From positions 248,001 to 312,000 of the forward strand of contig NZ_BJVA01000002.1 of the NCBI RefSeq assembly GCF_007988905.1: a stretch of 64,000 bases of DNA, read 5' to 3'. The DNA comes from Gluconobacter kanchanaburiensis NBRC 103587 (GTDB lineage: Bacteria; Pseudomonadota; Alphaproteobacteria; Acetobacterales; Acetobacteraceae). Positions 5,075-52,682 of the stretch are shown piece by piece. The notes below the pieces were generated by a model that was not told where the DNA came from, made no database searches, and saw only the letters and a list, made by a program, of their open reading frames with translations. The translations under genes were made by a program, and so were the position numbers. Position 1 is the stretch's first letter; each line of letters opens with the position of its first letter.

Positions 5075-5098
5075 GTCATCTTACCGAACGTCCGTTGA

Positions 5099-5209
5099 CC
5101 ACGCGCGATTAACGCCTGTTCAACATTCCAGCGCGCCGTCCTGCCGACCACCCTGCCTCTGGCCGAGTTCTACAAAAAATTGGCCCAGACCTGCATGGGC
5201 GCGGAATGA
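5099..5209 (+). pseudogene. Possible remnant: C-terminal tail of a radical SAM/B12-type protein
   Basis: A 36-codon open stretch with no start codon at its head, closed by TGA at 5207. Its protein reads like a family tail (VLPTTLPLAEFYKKLAQT), resembling the last residues of B12-binding radical SAM proteins such as those in hopanoid clusters. If so, it is all that is left of a deleted gene between the feo operon and the tpm-like gene. The resemblance is from memory and weak. Confidence 0.25.
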
Positions 5210-5212
5210 AGG

Positions 5213-5875: not shown

Positions 5876-5972
5876 AAGTCCGGCTTGCTTCCTGCTTTTC
5901 CCGGCTGAGACTGTGCCGGGTTCTGCTGGCGAGACAATGGTATGTGTCGGGAAAATGTGAGAAAAGCCGCTC

Positions 5973-35013: not shown

Positions 35014-35053
35014 GAAAACTCCGTTATCAGGGTCCGGCAAGCGGAATTGGACA

Positions 35054-36538
35054 TCAGTATTTGATCCACACGGTTTTCAGCGCGGAATATTTATCAAAAC
35101 TGTGCAGGGACAGATCCCGGCCGAAGCCGGACTGCTTCATGCCGCCGAACGGCGTCATCGGGGAAAGCGCATCGACGGTATTGACCGAAACCGTCCCGAC
35201 ATTCAGGCGGTCCGAAACCTCCATGATGCGCCCGACATCCCGCGTCCAGACGGACGCTGCGAGGCCATAGGGCGTGTCGTTGGCAAGGGTTATGGCCTCG
35301 GCATCATCACGGAACGTCTGGATCGCCAGCACCGGGCCGAAAATTTCCTCACGCGCAATCACCGCATCACGCGGAACATCGGCGAAAACCGTGGGCCGGA
35401 TGTAAGCGCGGGAGCCATGCAAGTCCATCTGCTCTCCGCCTGCGACAAGTCTGCTGTCCGCCCGGCCGGCTTTTATGAACCCCGCAACGCGGTCGGCATG
35501 GTCCTGCGTCGCCATCGGGCCGAGAACCGTCGCCGGGTCGAGCGGATTGCCCGGAACCAGCGCTTCCGCTTTCAGTCGCAGGCGCTCCGTCATCTCTTCC
35601 GCGATGGTATGATGGACGAGCAGGCGTGAATTGGCCGAGCAGACCTGCCCCTGATTGAAAAAGATGCCCCAGGCCGCCTTTTCGGCAGCGGCATCCAGAT
35701 CGGCATCCGGGAAAACCAGACAGGGGCTTTTGCCGCCGGTTTCGGGCCAGACCTGCTTCATGTTGCTCTCGCCCGCATAGCGCTGGAAGACCTTGCCGAT
35801 CTCCGTCGATCCCGTGAACGCCAGACAGTCCACATCCGGATGAAGCCCCAGAGCGCGCCCCGCGTCCTGTCCGAAACCGGGGATGACGTTCAACACACCG
35901 TCTGGCAGTCCAGCCTCGGCAGCCAGTTCTGCCAGACGCAGGGCGGAGAGCGGCGACTGTTCGGCGGGTTTAAGAACGACGGAATTGCCCACCGCCAGCG
36001 CGGGCGCGATTTTCCAGATCGCAAGATCGAGCGGAAAATTCCACGGCACCACCACACCGATCACACCCAGCGGCACCCGGCGGATCATCGCCAGATCGCG
36101 CCCGCCTGTCGGGGCGATCTCGTCATAGATCTTGTCGGTCGCTTCGGCATGCCACTGAAGAATGGCAGCGGCACCCGGCACGTCAATGTTCAGCGTGTCT
36201 GAAATCGGCTTGCCGACATCGAGCGTGTCCAGCAGCGCGAATTCCTCCAGGTTATCCCGCAGAAGCTGCGCCCAGCGTAGCAGCACGTCCTTGCGCGCAC
36301 CCGGCGTCATCCGCGACCAGACACCGCTCTCGAACGCCCTGCGTCCGGACTGGACGGCCCGGTCGATATCCGTCGCATCACCGCGTGCCACATCCGTCAG
36401 GTAGGCACCGTTTGCCGGGTTCACCGTCTCGAACCGTGATCCCGAAGACGCCGCAACGAAGCGTCCGTCGATCCAGCACTGATTGCGCAAAGTCAGGGTC
36501 GCCGCGCGTCCGGCGTAATAGGCAGCATTTTTTGTCAT
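35054..36538 (-). CDS. NAD(P)-dependent aldehyde dehydrogenase (PuuC-like)
   Basis: A 494-residue aldehyde dehydrogenase. Key features are VPWNFPLDLAIWKIAPALAVGN, the nucleotide segment FTGSTEIGKVFQ, the catalytic Glu in PETGGKSP, the catalytic Cys in NQGQVCSANSR, and EEIFGPVLAI. The pattern resembles enzymes that oxidise amino-aldehydes such as gamma-glutamyl-aminobutyraldehyde, in keeping with the aminotransferase nearby. The ATG at 36538 is chosen; the frame extends to a GTG at 36625, but that overlaps the upstream gene and gives an untypical N-terminus. It is the fourth gene of a leftward run that starts with the NCS1 permease at 40755. Confidence 0.9.
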   Translation of the reverse strand: MTKNAAYYAGRAATLTLRNQCWIDGRFVAASSGSRFETVNPANGAYLTDVARGDATDIDRAVQSGRRAFESGVWSRMTPGARKDVLLRWAQLLRDNLEEFALLDTLDVGKPISDTLNIDVPGAAAILQWHAEATDKIYDEIAPTGGRDLAMIRRVPLGVIGVVVPWNFPLDLAIWKIAPALAVGNSVVLKPAEQSPLSALRLAELAAEAGLPDGVLNVIPGFGQDAGRALGLHPDVDCLAFTGSTEIGKVFQRYAGESNMKQVWPETGGKSPCLVFPDADLDAAAEKAAWGIFFNQGQVCSANSRLLVHHTIAEEMTERLRLKAEALVPGNPLDPATVLGPMATQDHADRVAGFIKAGRADSRLVAGGEQMDLHGSRAYIRPTVFADVPRDAVIAREEIFGPVLAIQTFRDDAEAITLANDTPYGLAASVWTRDVGRIMEVSDRLNVGTVSVNTVDALSPMTPFGGMKQSGFGRDLSLHSFDKYSALKTVWIKY

Positions 36539-36612
36539 GGGGTCAGGCCTCTTTGCCAGTACTTTTTTTGCAGTATGCAGGATGCCGGAAGGCGGTTGTC
36601 GTGTCGCGTTCG

Positions 36613-37761
36613 TCACATCCGCCACAGGATCTCCGCTCCCGCCGCACGCAGGGACGCGATGTCGCGAAGTCCGGCGAGGCCGAGCACATCGCGGATTTCC
36701 TGCGTCAGGGCCTGAATCGCGGTTTCCACGCCCTGCTCGCCTGCTGCCGCGAGCGCCCAGGCCCAGGGCCGCCCGACGGAGACCGCCGTCGCCCCCAGCG
36801 CCAGAGCTGTCACGACGTCTCCGCCGCGCCGGATCCCGCTATCGAGCACGATATCGGCGCGTCCGCCCACAGCATCGACAATACCGGGCAGCACCTCGAT
36901 CGTCGCGGGGGACGGATCCATCTGTCGCCCGCCGTGATTGGACACGATCACCCCATCCGCGCCCGCGTCCAGCGCCAGCCGGGCATCATCCGGATGCATC
37001 ACGCCCTTGACGATCAACTGCCCCTTCCATTCGGAGCGCAGCCATTCCAGCCCGCTGCGGTCGAGGGTGGGATCGATCTGCGCCGCCATCTCGCGCGCTT
37101 GCCCCATTACACCGGAAACGGTCGTGTAGGGCCGCAGGTTTCCGATCACGGGCATGCCGTGCCGCAGCATCCCCAGCGACCAGCCCGGCCTTCCGGCGAG
37201 ACCGGCCATCTGCCGGGCGCTGGGCCGCGAGAGATGACGGAAGCCATTCCGCACATCGCGCTCCCGCACCGGCGTGATGGCCGTGTCGATCGTGACGATG
37301 ATGCCCTGGATCCCGCAGGCCGTGGCCCGCGCGAGCATGTCCTGCGTCAGCGCCCTGTCCCGGAAGACATAGATCTGCGCGAAGGGACTTCCACCAACGG
37401 CGGCAACATCCTCCATCGCCTCAATCGAGAAGGTGGACACAGCCATCCCCACCCCGCAGCGCCGGGCCGCACGCGCGGCACCGCTTTCGCGGTCGGAATG
37501 CAGCATCCCTGCGAAGCCGACAGGGGCAAGCATGAACGGGGCGGTCCAGTCCTGTCCGAAACAGCGCACGCCGGTTCCGACCTGCGACACGTCCCGCAGA
37601 CCGCGTGGCACGACGCCCCATCGCCCGAACGCCGCGCGATTGCGGGCCATGCTGTGTTCGCCATGCGCACCGCCATCCACATAATCCGCGAACAGGCGGG
37701 GCAGCCTCTGTCGCGCACGCGCCGCCAGAGCCGCGAACGCGCCATCATCAACGACCGTCAT
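36613..37761 (-). CDS. FMN-dependent alpha-hydroxyacid dehydrogenase/oxidase
   Basis: A 382-residue member of the lactate/mandelate/glycolate FMN family, which oxidises L-2-hydroxyacids to 2-oxoacids. It has FMLAPVGFAGMLH, AVSTFSIEAMEDVA, QIYVFRDRALT, the lysine strand GQLIVKGVMHPDDA, the catalytic histidine segment VSNHGGRQMD, and the FMN phosphate site LDSGIRRGGDVVTALALGA. The ATG at 37761 overlaps the 3' end of the amidohydrolase gene by 14 bases, so the two are coupled; a TTG at 37779 is the rejected alternative. Length is normal. With the D-specific reductase at 34072 it could let the pathway handle both forms of a hydroxyacid. Confidence 0.9.
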   Translation of the reverse strand: MTVVDDGAFAALAARARQRLPRLFADYVDGGAHGEHSMARNRAAFGRWGVVPRGLRDVSQVGTGVRCFGQDWTAPFMLAPVGFAGMLHSDRESGAARAARRCGVGMAVSTFSIEAMEDVAAVGGSPFAQIYVFRDRALTQDMLARATACGIQGIIVTIDTAITPVRERDVRNGFRHLSRPSARQMAGLAGRPGWSLGMLRHGMPVIGNLRPYTTVSGVMGQAREMAAQIDPTLDRSGLEWLRSEWKGQLIVKGVMHPDDARLALDAGADGVIVSNHGGRQMDPSPATIEVLPGIVDAVGGRADIVLDSGIRRGGDVVTALALGATAVSVGRPWAWALAAAGEQGVETAIQALTQEIRDVLGLAGLRDIASLRAAGAEILWRM

Positions 37762-39370
37762 AAACAACCCGTCCTTCAAGCACTGTCATCAGAACGCCGA
37801 TCTTCCGGATGTCTTCCGGCGCCACATCAGCAGGATCGGCGGCCAGAACGACCAGATCGGCAGCGTTCCCGACTACAATGCATCCTTCCCGGTCCTCGCG
37901 GTGGGAGGCGAACGCCCCGGCCTGCGTATAGGCAACAAGTGCCTCGTCCACTCCGATCGCCTGCTCCGGCACGAAAGCCGCTCCTTCCGGCCTGCCGTCA
38001 TCCAGCGAACTGCGACGGGTAATCGCCTTGCCGATCCCGTGCAGCGGTGACAGCGAGACGATGGGCCAGTCCGTTCCGAACGCGACCACACTCCCCGCAT
38101 CCAGCAGGGACCGGTTCGGAAAGGCACGGCAGTGCTCTTCACTGCGAACCCGCGTGGCCCAGACGCCGCCCATTCCCATCCATTCGTCCGACGGCGCCAC
38201 CATGACCGGCTGAAGACAGGCCACGACACCCAGTCCGGCAAAGCGGGGAATGTCGTCCGCAAACGGGATTTCCACATGCTCGACGCGGTGGCGCAGCGTG
38301 CGCGTTTCGTCCGGAGTCTGGGCATAGGCGTCCAGCGCAAGGCGGATCGCGCCGCTTCCGATGGCATGTGTCCAGATCTGGAACCCTGCCTCCGTTACAC
38401 GCCTGACCGCCGCCTTGTAGGCCTCCGGCGGCCAGACCAGGGTTCCGGTCTCGTCAGGACGGTCGCCATAGCCCTGCGGCATGTATCCGGTATGGGATTC
38501 CAGAACCCCATCCAGAAAGAACTTCACGCCATCAAGGCTGAGCATGGGCGAGCGATAGGTGCGACGAAGGGAGTCGATCTCCCTGAGCCGTGTCTCCGAC
38601 AGAGCCGGGGGCGGCATCTCCACCATTACGCCAACACGACAGGTCAGAGTCCCTGCGTCCTCCATCTCCCTCAGGACCGGAAAGAGGCTTTCATCATAGG
38701 CCGCGCTTTCCACCCGCGTGATGCCGTAGCGTGCGATTTCGGCGAAAACGCGCCGGATTCCGTCACGGATCATGGCCTCGTCCATCGGCGGCACGCAGGC
38801 GGAAACAAGCTTGGCTGCTTCCTCCTTCAGCCAGCCCGTGGGCGAACCATCAGGCCTGCGCACGATTTCACCCCCTTCCGGATCGGGCGTGGAGGCATCG
38901 ATCCCGGCACGTTCAAGCGCCCTGCTGTTCGCCCAGGCTGCATGCGCCATGCCGGAACGCAGGAAAACCGGCCGATCCGGAACGACGGCATCGAGCATCG
39001 CACGGTCGAAGCCTTCGGGGGGCAGATCGGGGTAGCCGTAACTCCATTCGAGACCGAGAAGCCAGTCACGGTCAGGATTGGCCTCAGCAAAAGCGGCAAC
39101 CCTTTCCACGACCTCGGCCATGGTGCGCGCGTCCCTCAGGCCGATATTGCTGAGATATTCCGTACCCATCAGCAGGTGGAGATGGCTGTCTACAAATCCC
39201 GGCAGGACGCACGCCCCGTCCAGATCAATGCGCTCCACGTCCTGCGGTGCGGACGCCGTGATCGCGGCTTCTTCGCCGATCGCGACGATGCTTCCGTCGC
39301 GGATCAGAAGACCGCCATGCAGGCGTGTCTGGTCTGGAAGGACGATCCGGGCATTATGCAGAAGGGTCAT
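37748..39370 (-). CDS. Amidohydrolase family 3 (YtcJ-like) metal-dependent hydrolase
   Basis: A 540-residue amidohydrolase of the YtcJ-like group. The N-terminal beta-sandwich (NARIVLPDQTRLHGGLLIRDG) leads into the metal site GFVDSHLHLLMG; later parts are WLLGLEWSYGYPDLPPEGFDR, RVESAAYDESLFPVL, the His of RHRVEHVEIPFADDIP and FGTDWPIVSLSPLHGIGKA. Such enzymes cleave amide or cyclic amide bonds; few have known substrates. The ATG at 39370 overlaps the permease stop in an ATGA; the longer frame up to 39556 lies inside the permease gene and is rejected. Direct coupling to an NCS1 permease suggests that the imported compound is its substrate. Confidence 0.88.
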   Translation of the reverse strand: MTLLHNARIVLPDQTRLHGGLLIRDGSIVAIGEEAAITASAPQDVERIDLDGACVLPGFVDSHLHLLMGTEYLSNIGLRDARTMAEVVERVAAFAEANPDRDWLLGLEWSYGYPDLPPEGFDRAMLDAVVPDRPVFLRSGMAHAAWANSRALERAGIDASTPDPEGGEIVRRPDGSPTGWLKEEAAKLVSACVPPMDEAMIRDGIRRVFAEIARYGITRVESAAYDESLFPVLREMEDAGTLTCRVGVMVEMPPPALSETRLREIDSLRRTYRSPMLSLDGVKFFLDGVLESHTGYMPQGYGDRPDETGTLVWPPEAYKAAVRRVTEAGFQIWTHAIGSGAIRLALDAYAQTPDETRTLRHRVEHVEIPFADDIPRFAGLGVVACLQPVMVAPSDEWMGMGGVWATRVRSEEHCRAFPNRSLLDAGSVVAFGTDWPIVSLSPLHGIGKAITRRSSLDDGRPEGAAFVPEQAIGVDEALVAYTQAGAFASHREDREGCIVVGNAADLVVLAADPADVAPEDIRKIGVLMTVLEGRVVYDGR

Positions 39371-40755
39371 GCGCGCTCTCCGCCCGGAAGGGCGCTGGCA
39401 CGAAAGCGCCGTTCCATAAAAATATACAGCGGCGGCGTCAGTGCGAGACTCACCACCCAGGAGATGTCCACACCACCCAGCATCTTCGCGAGGCTGCCCG
39501 TATAAAGGGCCGTTGAGAGGAACGGGACCTGAAAGAGAATGCCCGCCACGTAGCAACCGAGCGCGGGAATATTCCAGTATCCGTAACGGCCGCCATCGCG
39601 CCTGAAAAACGACGCCACGTCATACTCGCCGTGATGAAGGATGTAGTAATCGGTCAGGTTGATGGCGGTCCATGGGATCATGATGGACATCAGGAGTTCG
39701 AGAAACTCGCTATAGGCCGTCATGAAACGGTCGGCCATCAGCGTCGCCATTCCGAAAGCGAACAGGAGCAGCGCGATCGTGACCACGAGCCGCGCGCCGC
39801 GTCCGTAATGATGGTCAGGCGTAAAGGTCTGGGCGACGGTCAGGGTGGAGAGCGCGCCGCAATAGACGTTCATCGCATTCGCCACCGCAATGCCGAGCGA
39901 AAGCGCCAGCATGACCGGCACTGTCGCCACGCCGAGCAGCGATGTCAGAACCGCCACGACATGCTGACCGCCCACAAGCGTTCCCACAGCGGCTCCCAGT
40001 CCCATCGCTAGGAACGATCCGGAGACCGATCCGGAAAAACACGCGATGAACGCATTTTTCTCGTTTTTTCCGCCAGCGGGAAGATAACGCGATGAATCCG
40101 ACACATAGGGCGCATAGGCGATCTGCCACAGAGCCGCGAGCGAAACGGTCCTCAGGATGCCGGTCCCGCTGCCCCAGTGCGCCGCATCCACATGCATCGC
40201 GGGATGCGGGAGCATCAGCGCCACGAAACACACCAGAACGGCAATCCCGCACAGCAGGCTCAGGATCCGGGCGGCCGCATGAATGACGTGATAGCCCATG
40301 ACGGCGGGCAGAACCGAAAGAAGCTGGATGATCACGATGGCGGGAAAACGGCCCAGCCCTGGAATGCAGGCCTGTACCCCTTCTGCCCCCAGCACGAGAT
40401 TGGAGGCGACAAAACCAACATACATCAGAACGATGATCGCGGTGATCGGGACGGCGCCGAACAGTCCGAACTGACCCCGCGTCTGAATCATCTGAGGCAC
40501 TCCCAGTCGCGGCCCCTGGGCAGCATGAAGCGCCATAAACACGCCGCCGACGAGATTGCCCAGAAGCAAAGAAAGGATCGCAGGAATGAGGGAGAGGCCG
40601 AAAACCGTTGTCGCAAGGGCGCCGGTCGCGACCGTCAGCATCATCAGATTGGGCCCGAACCAGACGGTGAACAGGTCCCGAGCCGTCCCGTGCCGCCGTT
40701 CGGCCGGAATGGGATAGATCGTCTCGGATTCCAGTGTGCTGACCGCATCCACCAT
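39367..40755 (-). CDS. NCS1-family nucleobase/cation symporter (cytosine permease-like)
   Basis: A 462-residue inner membrane transporter of the NCS1 family (cytosine, hydantoin, allantoin, thiamine and pyridoxine carriers), with 12 predicted helices. Family features are TIYPIPAERRHGTARDLFTVWFGPN (its first part), GNLVGGVFMALHAAQGPRLG, QTRGQFGLFG, and a conserved IAYAPYVSDSSRYLP. It is the first gene of a leftward operon with the amidohydrolase, FMN dehydrogenase and probably the aldehyde dehydrogenase and GhrA-like reductase. A second NCS1 gene at 45552 is a clear paralogue. NCS1 members carry small N-heterocycles, which is the best clue to the kind of compound used by this region. Confidence 0.9.
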   Translation of the reverse strand: MVDAVSTLESETIYPIPAERRHGTARDLFTVWFGPNLMMLTVATGALATTVFGLSLIPAILSLLLGNLVGGVFMALHAAQGPRLGVPQMIQTRGQFGLFGAVPITAIIVLMYVGFVASNLVLGAEGVQACIPGLGRFPAIVIIQLLSVLPAVMGYHVIHAAARILSLLCGIAVLVCFVALMLPHPAMHVDAAHWGSGTGILRTVSLAALWQIAYAPYVSDSSRYLPAGGKNEKNAFIACFSGSVSGSFLAMGLGAAVGTLVGGQHVVAVLTSLLGVATVPVMLALSLGIAVANAMNVYCGALSTLTVAQTFTPDHHYGRGARLVVTIALLLFAFGMATLMADRFMTAYSEFLELLMSIMIPWTAINLTDYYILHHGEYDVASFFRRDGGRYGYWNIPALGCYVAGILFQVPFLSTALYTGSLAKMLGGVDISWVVSLALTPPLYIFMERRFRASALPGGERA

Positions 40756-40972: not shown

Positions 40973-41977
40973 ATGCTTGCTGCACGTTTCTACGGAATCG
41001 GTGACATCCGTGTCATGCCAACAGAACCGTCTCCGGAACTGAAGGAAGGCTTCGTCCGCGTGCGGATCGAGGCCGCTGGAATCTGCGGCTCGGACCTGCA
41101 TAACTTCCGGACGGGCCAGTGGATGTCCCGATGTCCCGTCACACCGGGACACGAACTTTCCGGTACCGTTACGCAAACATGCGGCGACTGCGCGGGCCTC
41201 GTGCCGGGCGATCATGTCGTCGCAGATTCCCGCGTCGGGTGTGGCCGCTGCGCCTCCTGCCGGTCCGGCCAGCCGAACCTGTGCCGCACGCTTGGTTTCG
41301 TGGGCGAGGTCTGTGACGGCGGTTTCGCACAGGAGGTTGTCCTTCCGGCGACACAGCTCCTGCGACTGCCCGCCGACATGCCGCTCCGGCACGGGGCGCT
41401 GGCCGAACCGCTTGCCGTTGCCCTCCATGCCGTGCATCGCCTCGCCCCGACGGAGGGCGCCCGCATTGTGGTCTGTGGCGGAGGAACGATCGGTGGCCTC
41501 GCGGCGCTAATCCTGCGCGAACGCGGACATGAGGTTTCGCTGCTCGAACGCAATGCCGGTCGTCAGGCACTGCTCCAGAATATCGCCGGCACCACGCCCC
41601 TGTCAGCGGATGAAGAGAACTGGGGCGCGCATTTCGTTCTGGATGCGACGGGCGCGGCCCCGGTCATCGAACTGGCCTGCCTGCGTGTGGCGCCCGGAGG
41701 GCGAATGGTTCTTGCGGGACTGTTCCACCAGAAGCCGCAGATCGATTTCAACCTTATCGTTGAAAGGGAAATCGAGATCCTCGGCGTCAGCGCCTTTGCC
41801 GACGAGATGCCGCAGGCCATCGCCCTTATCCCGCAGCTCGGTGAAAAACTCGACGCCTTGATCAGCGGCCCGCATGCCCTTCAGGACCTGCCGCAGCGCT
41901 ATGAGGCCCTGCTCGCCGGGACTGAAATCCGACTAAAAACCCTGATCGCCCCCAACGGCACGAGCAGCGCATGGTAG
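40973..41977 (+). CDS. Zinc-dependent medium-chain alcohol/polyol dehydrogenase
   Basis: A 334-residue medium-chain dehydrogenase. The catalytic zinc ligands are in AAGICGSDLHNF and GHELSG; the structural zinc cysteines are in VGCGRCASCRSGQPNLC; the nucleotide site is VVCGGGTIGGLAAL. It resembles L-threonine/sorbitol dehydrogenase-type enzymes. It opens a rightward run of four genes (dehydrogenase, SDR, HisD-like, kinase), and its stop overlaps the SDR start by seven bases. The 217-base gap upstream separates it from the divergent NCS1 permease operon and must hold both promoters. Confidence 0.9.
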   Translation: MLAARFYGIGDIRVMPTEPSPELKEGFVRVRIEAAGICGSDLHNFRTGQWMSRCPVTPGHELSGTVTQTCGDCAGLVPGDHVVADSRVGCGRCASCRSGQPNLCRTLGFVGEVCDGGFAQEVVLPATQLLRLPADMPLRHGALAEPLAVALHAVHRLAPTEGARIVVCGGGTIGGLAALILRERGHEVSLLERNAGRQALLQNIAGTTPLSADEENWGAHFVLDATGAAPVIELACLRVAPGGRMVLAGLFHQKPQIDFNLIVEREIEILGVSAFADEMPQAIALIPQLGEKLDALISGPHALQDLPQRYEALLAGTEIRLKTLIAPNGTSSAW

Positions 41978-42738
41978 ACACGCCCGACCTCTTTTCGCTC
42001 AGGGGCAGAACCGCTCTCGTCACCGGTGGCGGACGGGGGCTGGGATATGCGATGGCGCTGCATCTCGCACGATGCGGCGCGGACGTCCGCATCGCGGGCC
42101 GCACGGCTGCCACGCTCGAAAGGGCCTGCTCGGATGCGGAAAAGGCCGGTCTGCGCCTGCGCCCTGTGATCATGGATGTGGCCTCCACCGAGGCTATCCG
42201 CGCGGCGTTCTCAGAGATTACCCAGACGGCTCCGCAACTGGACATCGTCGTCAACAATGCCGGGGACGAAAGTCTGCGCGCCAGCGACGACGTGGACGAA
42301 GCCCTGTGGAACAGGCTGCTCGACACCAATCTCAAGGGACCGTTCTTCGTCGCCCAGCACGCCGCACGCCTCATGACAAAAGGGGGCAGCATCATCAATC
42401 TTGCTTCCCTGACCTCGGCGGCGGGCGTGGCAAAGGCCGTTCCCTACAGCGCGTCTAAATCCGGCATCCTCGGTGTGACGCGCAGTCTGGCGGTCGAATG
42501 GGCACCGCGCGGGATCCGCGTCAATGCGCTGGCTCCAGGCTATTTCCATACCGACATGACCGCTCCTTTCTTTGCCGATACCGACTGGCAGACGCGGATG
42601 CTCGCGCAGATCCCGCTCGGCCGGTTCGGACTGCCGGACGATCTTGCCGGCCCTCTCCAGTTTCTATGCTCCCCGGCCTCGGCCTACGTCACCGGGCAGG
42701 TGTTCTATGTTGATGGCGGGACCCTCGCCGCACTCTGA
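41971..42738 (+). CDS. Short-chain dehydrogenase/reductase
   Basis: A 255-residue classical SDR. It has the cofactor site TGGGRGLGYAMA, the NNAG motif, the active-site Ser in SLTSAAG, the YSASK tetrad, PG in LAPGYFHTDM and a C-terminal YVTGQVFYVDGG. Such enzymes oxidise secondary alcohols on sugars, polyols or cyclic compounds. Overlap with the zinc dehydrogenase gene by seven bases and short spacing to the HisD-like gene show a common operon. Residues after TGGG and RT in the second strand (IAGRT) suggest NADP could be accepted, but this is not certain. Confidence 0.9.
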   Translation: MVDTPDLFSLRGRTALVTGGGRGLGYAMALHLARCGADVRIAGRTAATLERACSDAEKAGLRLRPVIMDVASTEAIRAAFSEITQTAPQLDIVVNNAGDESLRASDDVDEALWNRLLDTNLKGPFFVAQHAARLMTKGGSIINLASLTSAAGVAKAVPYSASKSGILGVTRSLAVEWAPRGIRVNALAPGYFHTDMTAPFFADTDWQTRMLAQIPLGRFGLPDDLAGPLQFLCSPASAYVTGQVFYVDGGTLAAL

Positions 42739-42786: not shown

Positions 42787-44115
42787 ATGTCAGATCACGT
42801 CACGTTCCACGATCTCACGCAGACAGCCGAAATCCCCGAAGCCCTTCTGCAACGGACCGAGAGCGACCTGTCAGTCTTTGTCGAGCGCGTGACGCCCATC
42901 ATCGAGCGCGTGCGGACCGAGGGCGATGCGGCGCTGCGCCATTTTGCCCAGGCGTTCGACGGCGTCACCGACCCGCAGATGAGCATCAAGGCGACCCCTG
43001 AAGAGTTCGAGGCCGCTTTCGCCAGCATCGAGCCGGACGTGCTCGAAGCCATCAAATACGGCATCGACAACATCCGCCGCTTCCATGAAGCCCAGAAACC
43101 CGAAGAAAGCTGGATGATCGAGGTCCGTCCGGGCATCTGGGCCGGCGACCGGAACGTTCCGATCGATTCCGTCGCCTGTTACGTCCCGCGCGGCAAGGGC
43201 TGCTTCCCCAGCGTCGTGAACATGACGACCATTCCCGGCAAGGTCGCGGGCGTGCCGCGTCTGATCATCGTAACACCGCCGTCGCCGGACGGCACGGTGG
43301 ATGCCGGCACACTCGTTGCCGCCCGCCTGATCGGCGTGGAAGACGTCTATAAATGTGGTGGCGCACAGGCTGTCGCTGCCGTTGCGTTCGGTACCGAAAC
43401 CGTTCCTGCGTGCGCCAAGATCGTCGGCCCGGGCAGCCCGTATGTCGTCGCAGCCAAGCGCCTGCTTTCCGACCGGATCGATCCCGGCATCCCCGCCGGA
43501 CCAAGCGAGAGCATCATCCTCACCGATGACAGCGTCGATCCCGTCCTCGCGGCCCTCGACCTGATCATCGAATCCGAGCATGGTCCGGACTCGTCAGCAT
43601 GGCTCGTAACCAGCAGCCGCCGCGTTGCCGAAGGCGTCATCGCCGCTCTCCCCGCGCACTGGGCGGACATGGACGAAAAGCGCGCTGGTTTCTCCCGGGC
43701 CGTTCTGGGCGGGAAACATGGCGGCGTCGTGCTGACGAAGAATTTTCAGGCCGCTGTCGATTTCACCAACGCCTATGCGCCGGAACATCTGGAAATCCTG
43801 ACCACCGACCCGATGGCCGATCTGGGGCGCATCCGCAACGCCGGTGAAGTTCTGCTCGGTACGGCCTCCCCGGTCACGCTGTGCAACTACGTGCTCGGCC
43901 CCAACGCGGTCCTGCCGACCAACCGGGCCGCCCGGACGCATTCTCCCCTTTCGGTCCATGACTTCATGAAGCGCATGTCCTTCGCGCGCGTCTCACCTGA
44001 AGCGTATCCGGAAGCCGCCCGCCATGCGGAACGTTTCGCCCGCTACGAGAACTTTACCGGCCATGCCCGCGCGGTTTCCGCGGCCCGCCCGATGCCGAAG
44101 CTCGAACCACGATGA
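42787..44115 (+). CDS. Histidinol dehydrogenase-like enzyme with altered metal ligands (catabolic paralogue)
   Basis: A 442-residue HisD-family protein. HisD oxidises an alcohol to a carboxylate in two NAD-dependent steps. The fold markers are present: VPRGKGCFPSVVNMT, GGAQAVAAVAFGTETV, KIVGPGSPYV, GPSESIILTDD and YAPEHLEI with the catalytic Glu-His pair. The zinc ligands differ from E. coli HisD: the Gln of QAEHGPD is Glu262 (ESEHGPD, His265 kept), and the Asp before SGTNHVLPT is Asn367 in CNYVLGPNAVLPT. These changes and the lack of other his genes argue for a catabolic relative, such as the sulfopropanediol dehydrogenase (HpsN) branch, not histidine synthesis. The ATG at 42787 is preferred over a TTG at 42778. 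Its stop overlaps the kinase start (ATGA). Confidence 0.82.
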   Translation: MSDHVTFHDLTQTAEIPEALLQRTESDLSVFVERVTPIIERVRTEGDAALRHFAQAFDGVTDPQMSIKATPEEFEAAFASIEPDVLEAIKYGIDNIRRFHEAQKPEESWMIEVRPGIWAGDRNVPIDSVACYVPRGKGCFPSVVNMTTIPGKVAGVPRLIIVTPPSPDGTVDAGTLVAARLIGVEDVYKCGGAQAVAAVAFGTETVPACAKIVGPGSPYVVAAKRLLSDRIDPGIPAGPSESIILTDDSVDPVLAALDLIIESEHGPDSSAWLVTSSRRVAEGVIAALPAHWADMDEKRAGFSRAVLGGKHGGVVLTKNFQAAVDFTNAYAPEHLEILTTDPMADLGRIRNAGEVLLGTASPVTLCNYVLGPNAVLPTNRAARTHSPLSVHDFMKRMSFARVSPEAYPEAARHAERFARYENFTGHARAVSAARPMPKLEPR

Positions 44116-45446
44116 GCGATCCATCCGTCAGTGCCGCGGGTATCCTGACCGCGGCCCGCCGGGGCCAGCCCGACCTCGCCAGGTCACTGCTGGCGCGGAT
44201 GATCGAAGAGGAATTCGGGTTTCCGGTCCGGGAGGTCACGCTCGGCGCGGATGACTACAGCCTGAATTCGGTCAACGGATTCCTGACGCGGGAGGACGGG
44301 GAACGCTTTTTCTTCAAGTTCCACCACGAGGAAAACGAAGACTCCGTCCTTCAGGAATTCTATCGCGGCGAAATCCTGCTTGAAGCAGGCTTCCCCGTCG
44401 ATATGCCCGCCTATGTCTGCCGCCGCGTGGGACGGCAGATCCTGCTCTACCCCCTGCGGACCATTCCCAAACTCGCGGATGCCGCACGCGCCGTCGATCG
44501 CGGGCATCCGCTTCCCGGAGCCGACGATTCCGCCCTGATTGAAGCACAGCGAGACCTCGACAGGCTGAGTACACGGATCTATCTGCGCACATGGCACCCG
44601 ATCACCGCTGCCCAGAGTGAGGAGGAGCCGATCCACCAGCTCTTCCACCATCGCCTGACAAACCCGGACAGCCCGGCAGGCATCCTCGGCGGTCGTGCGG
44701 CCACGTTCTTCGCCGAAGACCGGAGGTTCGCTTTTCCGGGCCTCAGTGTCAGCGGCGCGGAACTGCGCCGCCTGCGCTGGGTGATCGACGGCGTGGCCTA
44801 TGACCGTACTTTGCAGGACTGTCTGGAAAACGCTCTGGCGCTTCTCGACCCTGCGGTTCTGGCGGCCTCGGGCGGTGTCATCGCCCATGGCGATGCCCAT
44901 AACGCCAATGTCTGGTTCACACCTCAGAACAGCGAAGCAGGGACGGCGGCGAGCCTCACATTCTTCGATCCGGCCTTCGCAGGGCGCGATATCCCGGCCC
45001 TACTGGCCGAAATCAAGGCCACGTTCCATAATATCTTCGCACACCCTGACTGGCTATATCATTCCGCGGAACTGATGAGCACGCCGAAGATCACGATCCG
45101 TGACGGCACCGCGTTTGTGACGACCGGATGGTCCCTGCCCCCGCTGCGGCAGGCCTTTCTGGAAGATAAGGGACGGCTTCTATGGACACCGCTGCTGGCG
45201 GCCCTGTCCGAACTCGGCGCACTTCCGGAGACCTGGCGGGAAACCATCCGCGCCGGACTGTTCTGCTGCCCGACGCTGGTGATGGATCTCTGCGCCCGCT
45301 CCGAAAGCGCTCCGAACAGCCGTCACACGCCTGCGTCCTCCCTGACAGGTCTCGCAGTCGCCATGATGTGCGGCGCGGAACCCGGACCGGAAGAGCAGGA
45401 TGTCGTCTCCCGTTTTCTCGACGCCATTGATCCGTCGCGCATCTGA
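44112..45446 (+). CDS. APH/choline-kinase-fold phosphotransferase
   Basis: A 444-residue protein with the aminoglycoside phosphotransferase fold. The N-lobe has FFFKFHHEENEDSVLQEFY (nucleotide lysine region); the catalytic loop is AHGDAHNANVWF (His259, Asp261) and the metal Asp286 lies in TFFDPAFAG. It is longer than typical APH enzymes because of an insert between the lobes and a C-terminal helical part. In a catabolic operon, start overlapping the HisD-like stop by four bases, it is much more likely to phosphorylate a pathway intermediate (an alcohol, amino alcohol or sugar-like compound) than to confer antibiotic resistance. The substrate is unknown. Confidence 0.8.
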   Translation: MSDPSVSAAGILTAARRGQPDLARSLLARMIEEEFGFPVREVTLGADDYSLNSVNGFLTREDGERFFFKFHHEENEDSVLQEFYRGEILLEAGFPVDMPAYVCRRVGRQILLYPLRTIPKLADAARAVDRGHPLPGADDSALIEAQRDLDRLSTRIYLRTWHPITAAQSEEEPIHQLFHHRLTNPDSPAGILGGRAATFFAEDRRFAFPGLSVSGAELRRLRWVIDGVAYDRTLQDCLENALALLDPAVLAASGGVIAHGDAHNANVWFTPQNSEAGTAASLTFFDPAFAGRDIPALLAEIKATFHNIFAHPDWLYHSAELMSTPKITIRDGTAFVTTGWSLPPLRQAFLEDKGRLLWTPLLAALSELGALPETWRETIRAGLFCCPTLVMDLCARSESAPNSRHTPASSLTGLAVAMMCGAEPGPEEQDVVSRFLDAIDPSRI

Positions 45447-45551: not shown

Positions 45552-46943
45552 ATGACGCAATTCGCAGACAAGAGAGCCCATGCGGCAGAGTCCTCTCCGT
45601 TCGCCGTTGAGAACGACACCATTTTCCCGATCCCCGAGGAACGGCGTCACGGCAATGCCTGGTCGCTGCTGATGGTCTGGATCGGAGCGAACCAGAACAT
45701 CATGGCCATCATGACCGGGATGCTCTACCCCAGCATCTGTCATCTGGCTCTGGGGTGGTCGCTGCTGGCCATATTGTGCGGCAATCTGCTTGGGGGCGTG
45801 TTCATGGCTCTGCACGCGGCGCAGGGTCCGCATCTTGGCATTCCGCAGATGCAGCAGACACGCGGGCAGTTCGGATCGACCGGCAGCCTGCTGATCATCG
45901 CGATCATCATTCTGATGTATGTCGGCTTCACCTCCACCTTTTTCGCGATCGGGCGCGAACAGTCAGCACAGGTGTTCGGGCCCGGATACGGTCAGGTTCC
46001 AATCTGGGGGGCCGTCATCGTCATCGCCACGCTCTGCGCGATCGGCCATGACATCATCGAACGGTTCATCTCGGGTTTCGTACCCGTGGCTGCCCTGACC
46101 TCGGTCCTGCTGGCCTTCGCCTATTTCGGCGTCTCGCACGGACAGCTCGCCATGCCGTTCTGGTCCGTTCCGACAATGCACCAGTTCCTGTCGGCGCTGT
46201 CGCTCGGCGTTCTGTGGCAGATCGCCTATGCCCCCTACGTCTCGGACTATACGCGATATCTGCCATCCCGCACGGGAGAGCGCACGGCGTTTCTCGTCTG
46301 TCTTGCCGGCAGCATCGCGGGGACGACATTTCCGACGTTTATCGGAGCCTATCTCGGCAGTACGGGTTTTGCAGGCAACATGTACGATGCGGTCCGAACC
46401 TATTCACCGTTTCTGCCCGTCGCGCTTTTTGCCGTGATGATCATCTCCACGCTGGTAAGCTGCACGATGCAGATCTACTGCGCGGCCCTCTCCTCCCTGA
46501 CCTTCCTCCAGACCTTCCGCCCGAACTGGACGCCCACGAGCCAGTCGCGCGCGATCGCCGCGACCCTCCTCCTGCTGGCCTGCGCCATCATCACAATCAA
46601 TCTCAGCGGCAGCGTGCTCGAAATCCTCGACAACGTCATTGCGCTCCTGCTGGCCGTCCTGTCTCCCTGGACCGCCATCAACCTCGCCGACTATTACCTC
46701 GTGCGGCATGGCGCCTATGATATCCCATCCCTGTTTCGCGCCGATGGCGGCATCTATGGCCGCGCCAACCGCCCGGCCCTGATCTGTTACGCCATTGGCG
46801 TGATCGTGCAGATCCCATTCCTGTCGAACGGACTCTATGTTGGCAGCATTGCAAGATCACTTGGCGGGATCGATCTGTCCTGGATTATCGGTATTTTCGT
46901 TCCCGGACTGATCTACTGGTTCTGGGCACGCCGTTCGATTTGA
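45552..46943 (+). CDS. NCS1-family nucleobase/cation symporter (second paralogue)
   Basis: A 463-residue NCS1 permease, clearly related to the one at 39367. Both share NDTIFPIPEERRHGNAW-like starts, GNLLGGVFMALHAAQGPHLGIPQM, QTRGQFGSTG, and IAYAPYVSDYTRYLP, which points to a local duplication followed by divergence. The N-terminus is longer by about eight residues. It follows the kinase gene by 105 bases on the same strand. Two close but different NCS1 carriers in one region suggest uptake of two related compounds, or of a substrate and an intermediate. Confidence 0.9.
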   Translation: MTQFADKRAHAAESSPFAVENDTIFPIPEERRHGNAWSLLMVWIGANQNIMAIMTGMLYPSICHLALGWSLLAILCGNLLGGVFMALHAAQGPHLGIPQMQQTRGQFGSTGSLLIIAIIILMYVGFTSTFFAIGREQSAQVFGPGYGQVPIWGAVIVIATLCAIGHDIIERFISGFVPVAALTSVLLAFAYFGVSHGQLAMPFWSVPTMHQFLSALSLGVLWQIAYAPYVSDYTRYLPSRTGERTAFLVCLAGSIAGTTFPTFIGAYLGSTGFAGNMYDAVRTYSPFLPVALFAVMIISTLVSCTMQIYCAALSSLTFLQTFRPNWTPTSQSRAIAATLLLLACAIITINLSGSVLEILDNVIALLLAVLSPWTAINLADYYLVRHGAYDIPSLFRADGGIYGRANRPALICYAIGVIVQIPFLSNGLYVGSIARSLGGIDLSWIIGIFVPGLIYWFWARRSI

Positions 46944-47117: not shown

Positions 47118-47531
47118 ATGCCCGTCCACAAACGGATCCGCCCGTTCAACACCAAAGACACCTATCCCGAGCAGAGCCTCGACAATGACCTGTGTCAGGC
47201 TGTCGTCGCGGGAAACACCGTTTATGTACGCGGACAGGTGCCGCAGGATCTCGACACGCGTGAGAATGTTGCCGTCGGTGATCCGGTCGGCCAGGCGCAC
47301 AAAGTGATGGAAAACATCGCGCTCCTGCTCAGGGAATCGGGCTCCGAACTCGCCCATATCTGCAAGGTCACGGTTTATCTGACAGATATCCGCTACCGCG
47401 AGGCGACCTACCGCGTGCTGGGCCAGCACCTCAAGGGCGTTTTCCCGGTCTTCACGGGTCTCGTCGTTGTGGCCCTGGCCCGCCCTGAATGGCTGATCGA
47501 AGTTGACGTCATCGCTGTCATTCCTGACTGA
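47118..47531 (+). CDS. RidA/YjgF-family imine/enamine deaminase
   Basis: A 137-residue Rid protein. The conserved parts are VYVRGQVPQDLD (with the family gly-gln), GQAHKVMENIALLLRESG, HICKVTVYLTDIRYREATY, and the C-terminal catalytic arginine segment ARPEWLIEVDVIAVI. RidA hydrolyses reactive imines or enamines made by amino-acid oxidation or PLP enzymes. Its place between an NCS1 permease and a TonB receptor, in a region with an aminotransferase and flavin enzymes, suggests a pathway step that releases ammonia from an imine. Many catabolic operons have a dedicated Rid protein of this kind. Confidence 0.9.
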   Translation: MPVHKRIRPFNTKDTYPEQSLDNDLCQAVVAGNTVYVRGQVPQDLDTRENVAVGDPVGQAHKVMENIALLLRESGSELAHICKVTVYLTDIRYREATYRVLGQHLKGVFPVFTGLVVVALARPEWLIEVDVIAVIPD

Positions 47532-47610: not shown

Positions 47611-49983
47611 ATGCAGACGAAATCTCCGCTTTCACGTCACTGTTTGCTCCTTTCGTCGACAATCCTCCTGCTTGGCGGGGTTGCGAAAGCCGCCACGACC
47701 ACGCACGGGCGACAGGGCTCACAAACGGGGGGCAGAAGTACTCATGCCGCCACCGCGCACTCCGCTGCTGCGGCTCCGCATAGCAGCGCGCCCCGGCGCA
47801 CTTCGCTCGACAGCACGGGGCCGGGCGATACGATCCAGGTTTCGGCCAGCCGCCACCATTCGGGCGGCGGCTTGATCCGGCGCGAGACAGCTGCACGTTC
47901 GGTCAGCACGATCTCCCGCGAATTCATTTCAAAACAGTCGCCAGCGTCCAATACACTGGCCCTCGTGACGCTCTCTCCGGGGGCGAACGTCGCCATGGGC
48001 GATCCTTTCGGTGTGACCGATCAGTCCTCTGTCAGCGTACGCGGTCTCAACCAGCAGGAAATCGGCTACGTCTTTGAAGGGGCGCCGATGAACGACCCCG
48101 ACAACTACACGCCGAACTCCTCGGAATGGGTCGACAGCGAGAACATGGAGAGCGTGCAGCTTCAGCAGGGCGCTCCCGACATCGAAATTCCGACCGTATA
48201 TTCTGCTGGCGGAACAATGCGCGTTCGCATGCGTGACCCGGACTACAAGCGTCAGGGTCAGCTTGATGTGAGCTATGGCTCCCATCAGATGAACCGTCAG
48301 TATCTGCGTTATGATTCGGGCGAGATCGGCAATACCGGCCTTCGCATGTTCGCATCATTCTCGAACCTGACCAGCCGCGCATGGCGCGGGCCGGGCCGCA
48401 ACAACCGCCGTCACATGGATTTCAAGGCTATCAAGGACTGGGCACCCGAGAGCAGCACCAGCCTCTCCTTCACCTATAACAACGAAAATACGGCCTGGTA
48501 CAGCACACCGACGCTCTCGGACTGGAACAAGTACGGCCTTGGCGGAGGGATCAACCTCAATGGCGTCTACAAGTTCGGAGATGCCAATTACTACAAAGGT
48601 TTCCAGACGGACTGGACGAACTATTTCCTGAGTAGCCAGTCGCATTTCAAGCTGAACCAGGAATGGTCGCTCGACGTCACGCCGTATTTCTATCATGGCT
48701 CCGGCAACTATCCGCTGGGCATCAACACGCTCCCGACGAGCGGCACCTATTATAACGGCACACAGGCCGTAAACGGATCGCTCGCCGGGAACAACTATTC
48801 CGAAGATGGCAATGTCGCTGCAAAATGGGATTGGTACGGACGCGAAAACTATACCGGCATCAACGCGGCTGCCCATTATGACACCGCGTTCAACCATCTC
48901 GTGTTCGGTGCCTGGTACGGCTACACCGACATGCATGTCAGCGAGCCGTTCTCCGCGCTCGACGGCGCCGGAAACGTTTCAAGCTCCCTGCTGTCACTTC
49001 AGGACGGAACCGTTCTCAACGGCTGGATCTACCATACGATCACCCAGATGGTGGGACTTTATGTCGGGGACGAGGTGCGCCTTCTGAACGACAGACTGCG
49101 GATCAATGCCGGTTTCAAGGAAGTCATGACGGCACGTGACGGCACGCTGAACCAGCCCGGCCCGCAATATGGCGCGAGCTATAACTCGGCCCAGCCGCTG
49201 CCGCGTTTCTCGATCAGCTACAAGGTCAATGACCAGATCCAGCTCTTCGCCAACGCCACAACGAGTTTCCGTGTTCCCATGGGCTCGGCGTTCTACAACC
49301 AGTATAACAGCCCTTATGATGCGAGCCTCTACCAGACGGCGAACACCCATTTGAAGGACGAGTACAGCATCGCCGAAGAAGTCGGCGCCCGGTATCACAA
49401 CAACTGGGTGACGGGCTCGGTCACGCTGTTCAATTACAACTTCGTGCATCACGCCATCAATGAATACATCAACGCCGTACCCTACTTCCTGGATGCAGGC
49501 GGCATGACCTCCCGTGGTGTGGATGCCGAGCTTGGTCTGCGTCCGTGGCATCATTTCTCGCCCTACGTGTCCGGCGAATATCTCTACGCCACGAACGACA
49601 ACAACATCACGCTGGACGGCGTGACCTACAGGACGAAAGGCAAAATTGCGACGTCCGCCCCGCGCTGGATGGCCGCGATCGGAGTGCAGTATGATGACGG
49701 CACGTTCTTCGGCAGCGTCTCGATGAAATATGTCGACAAAGAATACGGCACGTTCATGAACGACGAGCGGATTCCGGGCCACAAGCAGGTGGACCTGATG
49801 CTGGGCGCGCGCGCTCCGGATATCGGGTTCATGAAGAAGCCCAGCATCCGCCTGAACATCGTCAATCTGAACGACTCCCACTACCTGTCCGGCGTCTACA
49901 GCACCGGCCCCACAGCAGGAACCTCGACCTATTACGTCGCGCCGACATTCGCGGCTCTCGCAACGGTCTCAACGGGGTTCTGA
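47611..49983 (+). CDS. TonB-dependent outer membrane receptor
   Basis: A 790-residue outer membrane receptor. Residues 1-27 are a signal peptide ending in AKA. A low-complexity His/Ser/Thr/Ala-rich linker follows to about residue 65, then the plug domain (TISREFISKQSPASNTLALV, SVRGLNQQEIGYVFEGAPMND) and a barrel with many aromatic strands, ending in an aromatic residue (STGF). It lacks obvious siderophore-system neighbours such as a ferric reductase. The GMC oxidoreductase gene starts four bases after its stop, and RidA precedes it by 79 bases, so it most likely imports the substrate of this catabolic region across the outer membrane. Confidence 0.92.
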   Translation: MQTKSPLSRHCLLLSSTILLLGGVAKAATTTHGRQGSQTGGRSTHAATAHSAAAAPHSSAPRRTSLDSTGPGDTIQVSASRHHSGGGLIRRETAARSVSTISREFISKQSPASNTLALVTLSPGANVAMGDPFGVTDQSSVSVRGLNQQEIGYVFEGAPMNDPDNYTPNSSEWVDSENMESVQLQQGAPDIEIPTVYSAGGTMRVRMRDPDYKRQGQLDVSYGSHQMNRQYLRYDSGEIGNTGLRMFASFSNLTSRAWRGPGRNNRRHMDFKAIKDWAPESSTSLSFTYNNENTAWYSTPTLSDWNKYGLGGGINLNGVYKFGDANYYKGFQTDWTNYFLSSQSHFKLNQEWSLDVTPYFYHGSGNYPLGINTLPTSGTYYNGTQAVNGSLAGNNYSEDGNVAAKWDWYGRENYTGINAAAHYDTAFNHLVFGAWYGYTDMHVSEPFSALDGAGNVSSSLLSLQDGTVLNGWIYHTITQMVGLYVGDEVRLLNDRLRINAGFKEVMTARDGTLNQPGPQYGASYNSAQPLPRFSISYKVNDQIQLFANATTSFRVPMGSAFYNQYNSPYDASLYQTANTHLKDEYSIAEEVGARYHNNWVTGSVTLFNYNFVHHAINEYINAVPYFLDAGGMTSRGVDAELGLRPWHHFSPYVSGEYLYATNDNNITLDGVTYRTKGKIATSAPRWMAAIGVQYDDGTFFGSVSMKYVDKEYGTFMNDERIPGHKQVDLMLGARAPDIGFMKKPSIRLNIVNLNDSHYLSGVYSTGPTAGTSTYYVAPTFAALATVSTGF

Positions 49984-49987
49984 CGCC

Positions 49988-51658
49988 ATGCAGGACGCGG
50001 CGCGCCAGCCCCCAATCCAGACCCAACGCCCGTCTACGGGAATGGGCATCGACGGGAATGAAGACGCGGTGTTCGACTTCATCGTCGTCGGCGCAGGCTC
50101 GGCGGGCTGCGTGGTCGCGAACCGGCTGAGTGCGGACGGGCGTTTTCGCGTCTGTCTGATCGAGGCCGGTGGCGACGACCGCACCCCCCGCATCCGGATC
50201 CCCGCCGGAACGCTGACCCTCTACAAAAGCCGCACCCTCGCCTACCAGTTCGCCTCCACGCCGCAGCAGTTTCTGGACAACCGCTGCATTCATGTTCCCC
50301 GCGGTAGAGCGCTCGGCGGCTCTACCGTGATGAACAGCATGATCTATATCCGGGGCGACCGGAGCGACTATGATCACTGGGCCTCCCTCGGCTGCGAGGG
50401 TTGGGGATGGGACAGTGTTCTGCCGGAATTCAAGGCTCTCGAACACTGCCAGCGCCAGCTCGACCCGGAGTTTCATGGTTTTGACGGCGAACTGGACGTC
50501 GCCACGCCCCGCGACGTCAATCCGCTTTCGCACAGCTTTGTCGAGGCCGGGATCGCTGCCGGCATTCCCGAAAACCGCGACTTCAACGGAGCCACACTGG
50601 AAGGTGTCGGTATTTATGACGTCACGCAAAGGAACGGCTACAGGCTCAGCGCATATCGGGCCTTCATCCATCCGATCCGGGGCCGGGCCAATCTTTCGGT
50701 TCTGACGAAAGCACAGGTCCGCAACCTCATCATCGAAGACAGGACTGTCCGGGGGGTTACGATTCTGCAGGACGGGCAGGCGCGTGTCCTGCACGCCCGG
50801 CGTGAAGTGGTGCTCTGCGCGGGTGCCATCGGCTCCCCCCAGATCCTGATGGCGTCGGGCATCGGCCCGGGCGCGACGCTTGTCCGCGCGGGGATCTCCC
50901 CGCTCCATGATCTCTCCGGCGTCGGCGGCAATCTTCAGGATCATCTGGATGGCCTGGTCACAGTGCGATCGCGCGATCCGCGCACGCTGGGGTTCTCGGC
51001 ACGCTCCCTGCCTGCGGTCCTTCCCTCGCCTCTCCGCTTCCTGTTCGGACGCAAAGGCTGGCTGACCACGAATTACGTCGAAGCCGGAGGGTTCGCTCAT
51101 ACGTCCCTGTCCGACGGGCGCGTCCCCGACATCCAGTTCCACTTCGTACCAGGCTATCGCAGCCCACGCGGCAGGCTGTTCGAATGGGGGCACGGCATTG
51201 CGATCCACACCTGCGTTCTGCGCCCACGAAGCCGGGGCAAGATCAGCCTTGCGACGGACGGGTCGAACGCGCCGGTCATCGACTTCAGTTTCGGCTCCGA
51301 TCCGCAGGACCTCAGAGTGCTCTGCGAAGGAATCAAAGTCGCGCGCAATATCCTCTCCCAGACCGCTTTCGACGGTACGCGCGGCATTGAGCAAGCTCCA
51401 GGCAAGACGGTCGTGAGCGATCAGGACATCCTCAACTATCTGCGCAGAAGCGCGGCCACGGTGTTTCATCCCGCCGGAACCTGCCGCATGGGCAGCGATG
51501 CCGGTGCAGTGGTGACACCGCGCCTCAGTGTGGTGGGTCTGAGTGGGCTGCGGGTCGCGGATGCGTCCATCATGCCGACCCTCATCAGCGGCAACACCAG
51601 CGCCCCGAGCATGATGATCGGCGCAAAGGCCGCACGGATGATCCTCGAAGACGCCTGA
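49988..51658 (+). CDS. GMC-family FAD-dependent alcohol oxidase/dehydrogenase
   Basis: A 556-residue glucose-methanol-choline oxidoreductase. The FAD site is IVVGAGSAGCVVANRLS (residues 32-48), followed by PRGRALGGSTVMNSMIYIRG and GAIGSPQILMASGIGP; the catalytic His494 is in HPAGTCRMG, with GNTSAPSMMIGAKAA at the end. It starts four bases after the TonB receptor stop. No signal peptide is seen, so it should be cytoplasmic; about 30 extra residues precede the FAD domain. Relatives oxidise choline, alcohols, or pyridoxine. In this region it likely oxidises a primary alcohol of the imported compound to the aldehyde. Confidence 0.92.
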   Translation: MQDAARQPPIQTQRPSTGMGIDGNEDAVFDFIVVGAGSAGCVVANRLSADGRFRVCLIEAGGDDRTPRIRIPAGTLTLYKSRTLAYQFASTPQQFLDNRCIHVPRGRALGGSTVMNSMIYIRGDRSDYDHWASLGCEGWGWDSVLPEFKALEHCQRQLDPEFHGFDGELDVATPRDVNPLSHSFVEAGIAAGIPENRDFNGATLEGVGIYDVTQRNGYRLSAYRAFIHPIRGRANLSVLTKAQVRNLIIEDRTVRGVTILQDGQARVLHARREVVLCAGAIGSPQILMASGIGPGATLVRAGISPLHDLSGVGGNLQDHLDGLVTVRSRDPRTLGFSARSLPAVLPSPLRFLFGRKGWLTTNYVEAGGFAHTSLSDGRVPDIQFHFVPGYRSPRGRLFEWGHGIAIHTCVLRPRSRGKISLATDGSNAPVIDFSFGSDPQDLRVLCEGIKVARNILSQTAFDGTRGIEQAPGKTVVSDQDILNYLRRSAATVFHPAGTCRMGSDAGAVVTPRLSVVGLSGLRVADASIMPTLISGNTSAPSMMIGAKAARMILEDA

Positions 51659-51755: not shown

Positions 51756-52682
51756 ATGCGTTATACCCTGCGTCAGCTCGAATATTTTGTCGCCGCCGGT
51801 GAAGCGGGATCGATCCGCCACGCCTCCGAACGGCTGTCCATTTCCCAGCCATCCATCTCGACGGCGATCTCGCATCTCGAGCTCGAACTGAACGTCCAGC
51901 TTTTCGTGCGGCATCACGCGCAGGGGCTGTCGCTGACGAGCGTGGGCCGTACTTTGCTACGGGAAGCAAAGAACATTCTGGCGATGGCGGAAAGCCTGCA
52001 CTCAGTGGCGGCGGAAGAAACGGATCAGGTGCGGGGCCGCCTCTCAGTGGGTGCGATGATCACGCTTGCCCCCATGGTCATGCCCGCCCTTGCCTACAGT
52101 TTCCGGCTCGACTATCCGTCCGTCGACATCCGGCAGTTCGCCTCAAATCACGAATGGCTGACCGAGAAACTCAAACAGGCCGAGCTTGATCTCGCCATCA
52201 CCTACGACCTTGAGATGCCACCGGGCATCGAGTTCGTTCCGCTGGCGAGCCTGCCGCCACATGTGGTCGTCAGCACCGATCATCCTCTGGCCGGACGCTC
52301 CAGCGTGAGTCTGGCCGAGATCGCGCATGAACCAATGATTTTTCTCGATCTCCCCCTCAGCCGCCAGTATTTCAACGGTCTTTACGAACGGGAGGGCCTT
52401 CAGCCAAACATCTATGCCCGCAGCGCGGAACAGGCCGTCGTACGGACAATGGTCGCAAACGGCTACGGATATTCGCTGGCCAATGTGCGGCCCAGATCGA
52501 ACATGGCAATGGACGGCAAGACGGTGGTGCGCGTCAAACTGTCAGGCGATCATCGGCCGATGGTGATGGGGATGGCGATGCGACAGGAGACGCGCAAATC
52601 CCGCTTGCTCGAACATTTCTGCGACCATTGCCGCGCCTCGATTTCCGACCATGACATTCCGGGCATGAGTCCGCTGGAATAG
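51756..52682 (+). CDS. LysR-family transcriptional regulator
   Basis: A 308-residue LysR regulator with an N-terminal helix-turn-helix (RYTLRQLEYFVAAGEAGSI, then ASERLSISQPSISTAISHLE) and an effector domain (LSVGAMITLAPMVMPALAY, DLAITYDLEMPPGIEF). The domain start resembles regulators such as NocR/CysB-like catabolic activators. It is in the middle of the catabolic region, 97 bases after the GMC gene and convergent with the aldolase gene, and probably controls part of it, alongside the LuxR-type regulator at the left edge. Confidence 0.9.
   Translation: MRYTLRQLEYFVAAGEAGSIRHASERLSISQPSISTAISHLELELNVQLFVRHHAQGLSLTSVGRTLLREAKNILAMAESLHSVAAEETDQVRGRLSVGAMITLAPMVMPALAYSFRLDYPSVDIRQFASNHEWLTEKLKQAELDLAITYDLEMPPGIEFVPLASLPPHVVVSTDHPLAGRSSVSLAEIAHEPMIFLDLPLSRQYFNGLYEREGLQPNIYARSAEQAVVRTMVANGYGYSLANVRPRSNMAMDGKTVVRVKLSGDHRPMVMGMAMRQETRKSRLLEHFCDHCRASISDHDIPGMSPLE

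Follow-up and report, generated by a model that had tools for sequence, protein, structure and literature searches.

Histidinol dehydrogenase (HisD) and HpsN both convert a primary alcohol into a carboxylate in two NAD-dependent steps, acting on a metal-chelating substrate. In Pseudomonas, the breakdown of imidazolelactate via imidazolepyruvate and histidine was described biochemically decades ago; our literature search, which covered open-licence papers only, returned nothing relevant on the catabolism of imidazolelactate or imidazole diols. HpsN, the (R)-DHPS 3-dehydrogenase of Cupriavidus and Ruegeria, is a catabolic enzyme with the HisD fold. In CpHpsN the zinc is coordinated by Gln248, His251 and His411 plus either His126 or Asp352, the sulfonate is bound by His126 and Lys353, and an Asp352Ala exchange makes the enzyme inactive (PMC11382572). 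Its partners are a short-chain dehydrogenase (SDR) of family PF13561, HpsO, and a zinc alcohol dehydrogenase (Zn-ADH) of families PF00107/PF08240, HpsP; the neighbourhood rule of the published HpsN census called for members of both PF13561 and PF00107/PF08240 to be encoded in the vicinity (PMC11382572, section 2.8).

The gene studied here lies in the window, i.e., the whole stretch of 64,000 nucleotides of Gluconobacter kanchanaburiensis NBRC 103587 DNA that was analysed. Its product, named HisD2, contains a full-length Histidinol_dh domain (Pfam, E 3.7e-137) and scores 440 bits against NCBIfam TIGR00069, so far over the cut-off of 243.8 that automatic annotation would label it a histidinol dehydrogenase. 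The nearest solved structures to its predicted structure (pLDDT 87.9) are those of HisD. The best match, from Gluconobacter aidae, is 99% identical, and the closest relatives are found in Gluconobacter genomes of the species collection. The host genome (2.9 Mb in 46 contigs) encodes a second family member at a separate locus, a canonical hisD (G000:C3:160045-161259; L122) that keeps Gln and Asp at the ligand positions. HisD2 is different from this biosynthetic copy. Its neighbours, called mechanically as open frames, and the two codons of main interest are the following.

32673..34052, + strand: class III aminotransferase
34072..35040, - strand: GhrA-like D-2-hydroxyacid dehydrogenase (homologue annotated at L143:15217-16170)
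35054..36625, - strand: aldehyde dehydrogenase
36613..37779, - strand: FMN-dependent 2-hydroxyacid dehydrogenase (PF01070)
37748..39556, - strand: amidohydrolase (Amidohydro_3); translation probably begins further in
39367..40755, - strand: NCS1-family permease
40973..41977, + strand: zinc alcohol dehydrogenase, HpsP-type partner (PF08240 and PF00107)
41971..42738, + strand: short-chain dehydrogenase, SDR, HpsO-type partner (PF13561)
42787..44115, + strand: HisD-like dehydrogenase HisD2, 442 aa (PF00815, E 3.7e-137; predicted fold)
43570..43572, + strand: codon of Glu262, aligned with zinc ligand Gln259 of E. coli HisD
43885..43887, + strand: codon of Asn367, aligned with zinc ligand Asp360 of E. 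coli HisD
44112..45446, + strand: APH-like small-molecule kinase, HGDxxxxN and D motifs kept
45552..46943, + strand: second NCS1-family permease
47118..47531, + strand: RidA-family protein
47611..49983, + strand: TonB-dependent receptor
49988..51658, + strand: GMC oxidoreductase
51756..52682, + strand: LysR-family regulator

The HisD2 gene overlaps by 4 bases with that of the APH-like protein, which is modelled confidently with a small-molecule kinase fold (pLDDT 91.4); its similarity to macrolide phosphotransferases, PsiK and methylthioribose kinase is weak. Within the window, the HisD2 operon is devoid of his genes, and no hut gene is present; a motif scan of the window revealed no HutC-like operator site beyond chance.

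The earlier note had placed Glu262 and Asn367 at the positions of the E. coli zinc ligands Gln259 and Asp360, with the catalytic Glu-His pair and the other His retained, and our alignment with E. coli HisD reproduces each of these positions exactly. Both His ligands are kept (His262 as His265, His419 as His426), as is the catalytic pair (Glu326-His327 as Glu333-His334), giving a ligand set of Glu, His, Asn, His in HisD2 versus Gln, His, Asp, His in HisD. Glu and Asn occur in 83/83 relatives aligned (57-99% identical; 81 distinct, since L083 and L084 seem to be second copies of the window and L013), and also in all nine branch members found later in other genomes. Gln and Asp, on the other hand, are present in all 17 canonical HisD sequences of the same alignment and in the HpsN sequences from the structure search. 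The Glu/Asn pair is thus fixed across the HisD2 branch and is not a chance occurrence. The exchange would swap a carboxylate and a carboxamide between two positions, leaving the total ligand charge unchanged. The catalytic Glu-His and both His ligands are invariant across the aligned set, and the branch carries further specific changes (Gly133Arg, Ala136Gly, Asn211Ser), while the position of His367 is Ala in most members. Two candidate markers were dropped: the imidazole-binding Glu414 is kept in the branch but also in HpsN and hence does not mark an imidazole substrate, and the Glu356 to Val/Ile change is not coupled to Gln259Glu, since HpsN has Val there together with Gln.

A maximum-likelihood analysis of 61 proteins yields two separate 100/100 clades, one exclusive to the HisD2 branch and one made up of HpsN and its relatives; given a long-branch attraction warning with E. 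coli HisD, this tree fixes the HisD2 clade, not its sister group. Matches to the branch profile in 398 sampled Proteobacteria likewise fall into two sets separated by a wide gap (at least 581 versus at most 376 bits). Instead of the HpsN motif GRY[A/S]H, which includes the sulfonate-binding His126, the branch has RGKG, then Ser/Ala/Cys, then Phe, and Tyr or Phe replaces Lys353. The exclusive clade, the change of both ligands throughout, the catabolic neighbours and the second, normal hisD together support well the part of the earlier proposal that saw a branch of its own acting on a new, catabolic substrate; its observation of an operon without his genes holds for the window, and the normal hisD that it had envisaged elsewhere is the copy on C3. 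Its suggested closeness to HpsN, in contrast, fails on the retained Gln248/Asp352 of HpsN, the missing motif and Lys353, and the separate clade; on residues and tree together we reject HpsN membership. HisD2 and the hps systems have an operon logic in common (SDR, Zn-ADH and HisD-like enzyme), not a branch. As a consequence of this layout, loci of the HisD2 branch could be admitted by the published census rule (PMC11382572). A further clade beside HpsN occurs in Acetobacteraceae (L116, L117, L118, L123), with a GGKYP motif and with Gln and Asp kept.

To compare neighbourhoods, 82 fetched loci of relatives were combined with the window. Among these 83 stretches, an SDR recurs beside HisD2 in 62, the kinase in 60, and the Zn-ADH and the FMN-dependent 2-hydroxyacid dehydrogenase in 38 each; outside the acetic acid bacteria, an ABC transporter of the SsuA/NMT1 type often precedes the gene. 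At least one hut gene is present in 27 of the 75 relatives' loci of at least 9 kb, and a HisC-like transaminase in 17 of them. Counted by genus-level groups, 17/37 have a hut gene, where chance linkage amounts to about 0.6% per locus by a geometric estimate that assumes genome and cluster size rather than using a matched control. L025, L039, L050 and L062 contain HutC genes whose products score over the TIGR02018 cut-off, and in several alphaproteobacterial genomes HutC is encoded within the operon (L150, L154, L155) or close by (L151). In Acidocella (L025) HisD2 and the gene of the HisC-like transaminase share 4 bases, and Hafnia (L024) has a 4-base overlap between the genes of the FMN dehydrogenase and the HisC-like transaminase, adjacent to hutU. 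The most distant members of the branch have no hut link. In several genomes belonging to one family (L147, L148, L149), a HisD-like gene with Glu/Asn, 50-57% identical, stands without the usual neighbours, and urocanase is absent from all six that were tested. One genome carries two branch copies (L152, L153; G131:C6:88560-89882 and G131:C10:270629-271942) in differing neighbourhoods.

Among 26 Gluconobacter genomes, the HisD2 branch is found in nine, urocanase in 14 and both in seven, so that two genomes have HisD2 and lack urocanase; this co-occurrence (7/9 versus 7/17) is not significant (Fisher p = 0.11). One hut gene set is confined to HisD2 carriers (5/5, p = 0.002), in a comparison chosen post hoc. 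In four Gluconobacter genomes, one contig encodes both HisD2 and urocanase, some 16 kb apart. The host itself has a hut cluster at G000:C7:8000-27000 (L126) with hutC, hutI, hutF, hutG, hutU, hutD and a HisC-like gene; histidine ammonia-lyase (hutH) was not found in its assembly. The hut cluster of a sister genome (L146) holds hutH, an FMN-dependent 2-hydroxyacid dehydrogenase, an FAD-linked oxidase and a HisC-like gene (HisC2). In this cluster, the oxidase, which has GlcD-like domains (4476-5972), and the FMN enzyme (6498-7643) lie close together, which suggests that both forms of a 2-hydroxy acid are oxidised.

We tentatively propose, at little short of even chances, that HisD2 works in catabolism as an NAD- and metal-dependent dehydrogenase of an imidazole alcohol other than histidinol, most likely an imidazolyl-propanediol whose product imidazolelactate would enter the hut pathway; its substrate, product, metal binding and reaction direction we infer from context and homology. 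HisD2 would perform the four-electron oxidation of 3-(imidazol-4-yl)-1,2-propanediol to imidazolelactate, while the SDR and Zn-ADH, in the manner suggested for HpsO and HpsP, may convert the C2 stereoisomers or the ketone into one another. The 2-hydroxyacid dehydrogenases would then yield imidazolepyruvate, which a HisC-like or other transaminase could convert to histidine for degradation via hut. The hut linkage speaks for an imidazole substrate, less for a polyol or amino alcohol in general, and given that 2-hydroxyacid dehydrogenases and a HisC-like transaminase are encoded beside hut genes, imidazolelactate is the most economical product and imidazolyl-1,2-propanediol the corresponding substrate. 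The transporters (NCS1 in the window, SsuA/NMT1-type ABC elsewhere) fit an N-heterocycle. Counting against an imidazole substrate are the two Gluconobacter genomes without urocanase and the non-significant co-occurrence, the Ala at the His367 position in most members, the distant members without a hut link and the lack of a HutC-like site in the window. The imidazolelactate scheme in addition gives no role to the kinase and leaves the missing hutH of the host unexplained.

The kinase and the amidohydrolase, which find no place in that scheme, favour instead another N-heterocyclic or amino alcohol, degraded by a route that has its regulator and final enzymes in common with hut and bypasses imidazolelactate. 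Broad transporters and distant members without hut neighbours agree with such a route, but it has to face the recurrence of the HisC-like transaminase, the FMN-dependent 2-hydroxyacid dehydrogenase, HutU and HutH, and we regard it as unlikely, if worth serious consideration. Less probable still is a catabolic histidinol dehydrogenase that turns scavenged L-histidinol, or a close derivative, into histidine for hut. Histidinol is the classical substrate of the family, Glu414 is kept and the hut linkage would be in line with it; yet the genome already has a normal HisD, both zinc ligands are altered in every branch member, and such a reaction has no use for the SDR, the Zn-ADH, the 2-hydroxyacid dehydrogenases or the transaminase. 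The resemblance of the SDR, Zn-ADH and HisD-like layout to hps might also indicate an enzyme of the HpsN type that acts on a 1,2-diol, sulfonated or plain, the hut linkage being incidental. This is very improbable with His126 replaced by Ser/Ala/Cys and Lys353 by Tyr/Phe, with a separate clade and with a hut linkage far over the chance estimate. We give the least credence to a loss of metal binding that would leave HisD2 with another, possibly non-catalytic, role: the inactivity of the Asp352Ala variant of HpsN (PMC11382572) speaks for it, whereas Glu and Asn are able to coordinate metals, the catalytic Glu-His and both His ligands are invariant in the aligned set and the operon is conserved.

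Returning to the proposed imidazole alcohol dehydrogenase, the wider claim that the Glu/Asn proteins make up a functional branch of their own, the third in the HisD family, in an undescribed proteobacterial pathway from imidazole diols via imidazolelactate to histidine catabolism, is a possibility that we advance with more reserve. If true, the family would have a second catabolic branch beside HpsN and an exchange of metal ligands that can be put to the test, and an upstream extension of hut would explain the HisC-like and 2-hydroxyacid dehydrogenase genes near hut clusters.

Compared to E. coli HisD and Medicago MtHDH, HisD2 has the same fold and domain order, the catalytic Glu-His, the two His ligands and Glu414. 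It is 34% identical to E. coli HisD, differs at Gln259Glu, Asp360Asn, Gly133Arg, Asn211Ser and, in most members, His367Ala, and is encoded outside any his operon. Similar to HpsN, it combines the HisD fold and a catabolic setting with SDR and Zn-ADH partners, and its Zn-ADH, SDR and HisD-like genes stand together as in hpsP-hpsO-hpsN; however, Gln248/Asp352, GRY[A/S]H and Lys353 of HpsN all differ in HisD2, and where hps systems contain sulfolyase genes, HisD2 is linked to hut. In comparison with the hut pathway, whose genes (HutC, HutH, HutU, HutI, HutF, HutG) are present in loci of HisD2 relatives, the HisD-like branch, the 2-hydroxyacid dehydrogenases and the HisC-like transaminase would represent an addition upstream.
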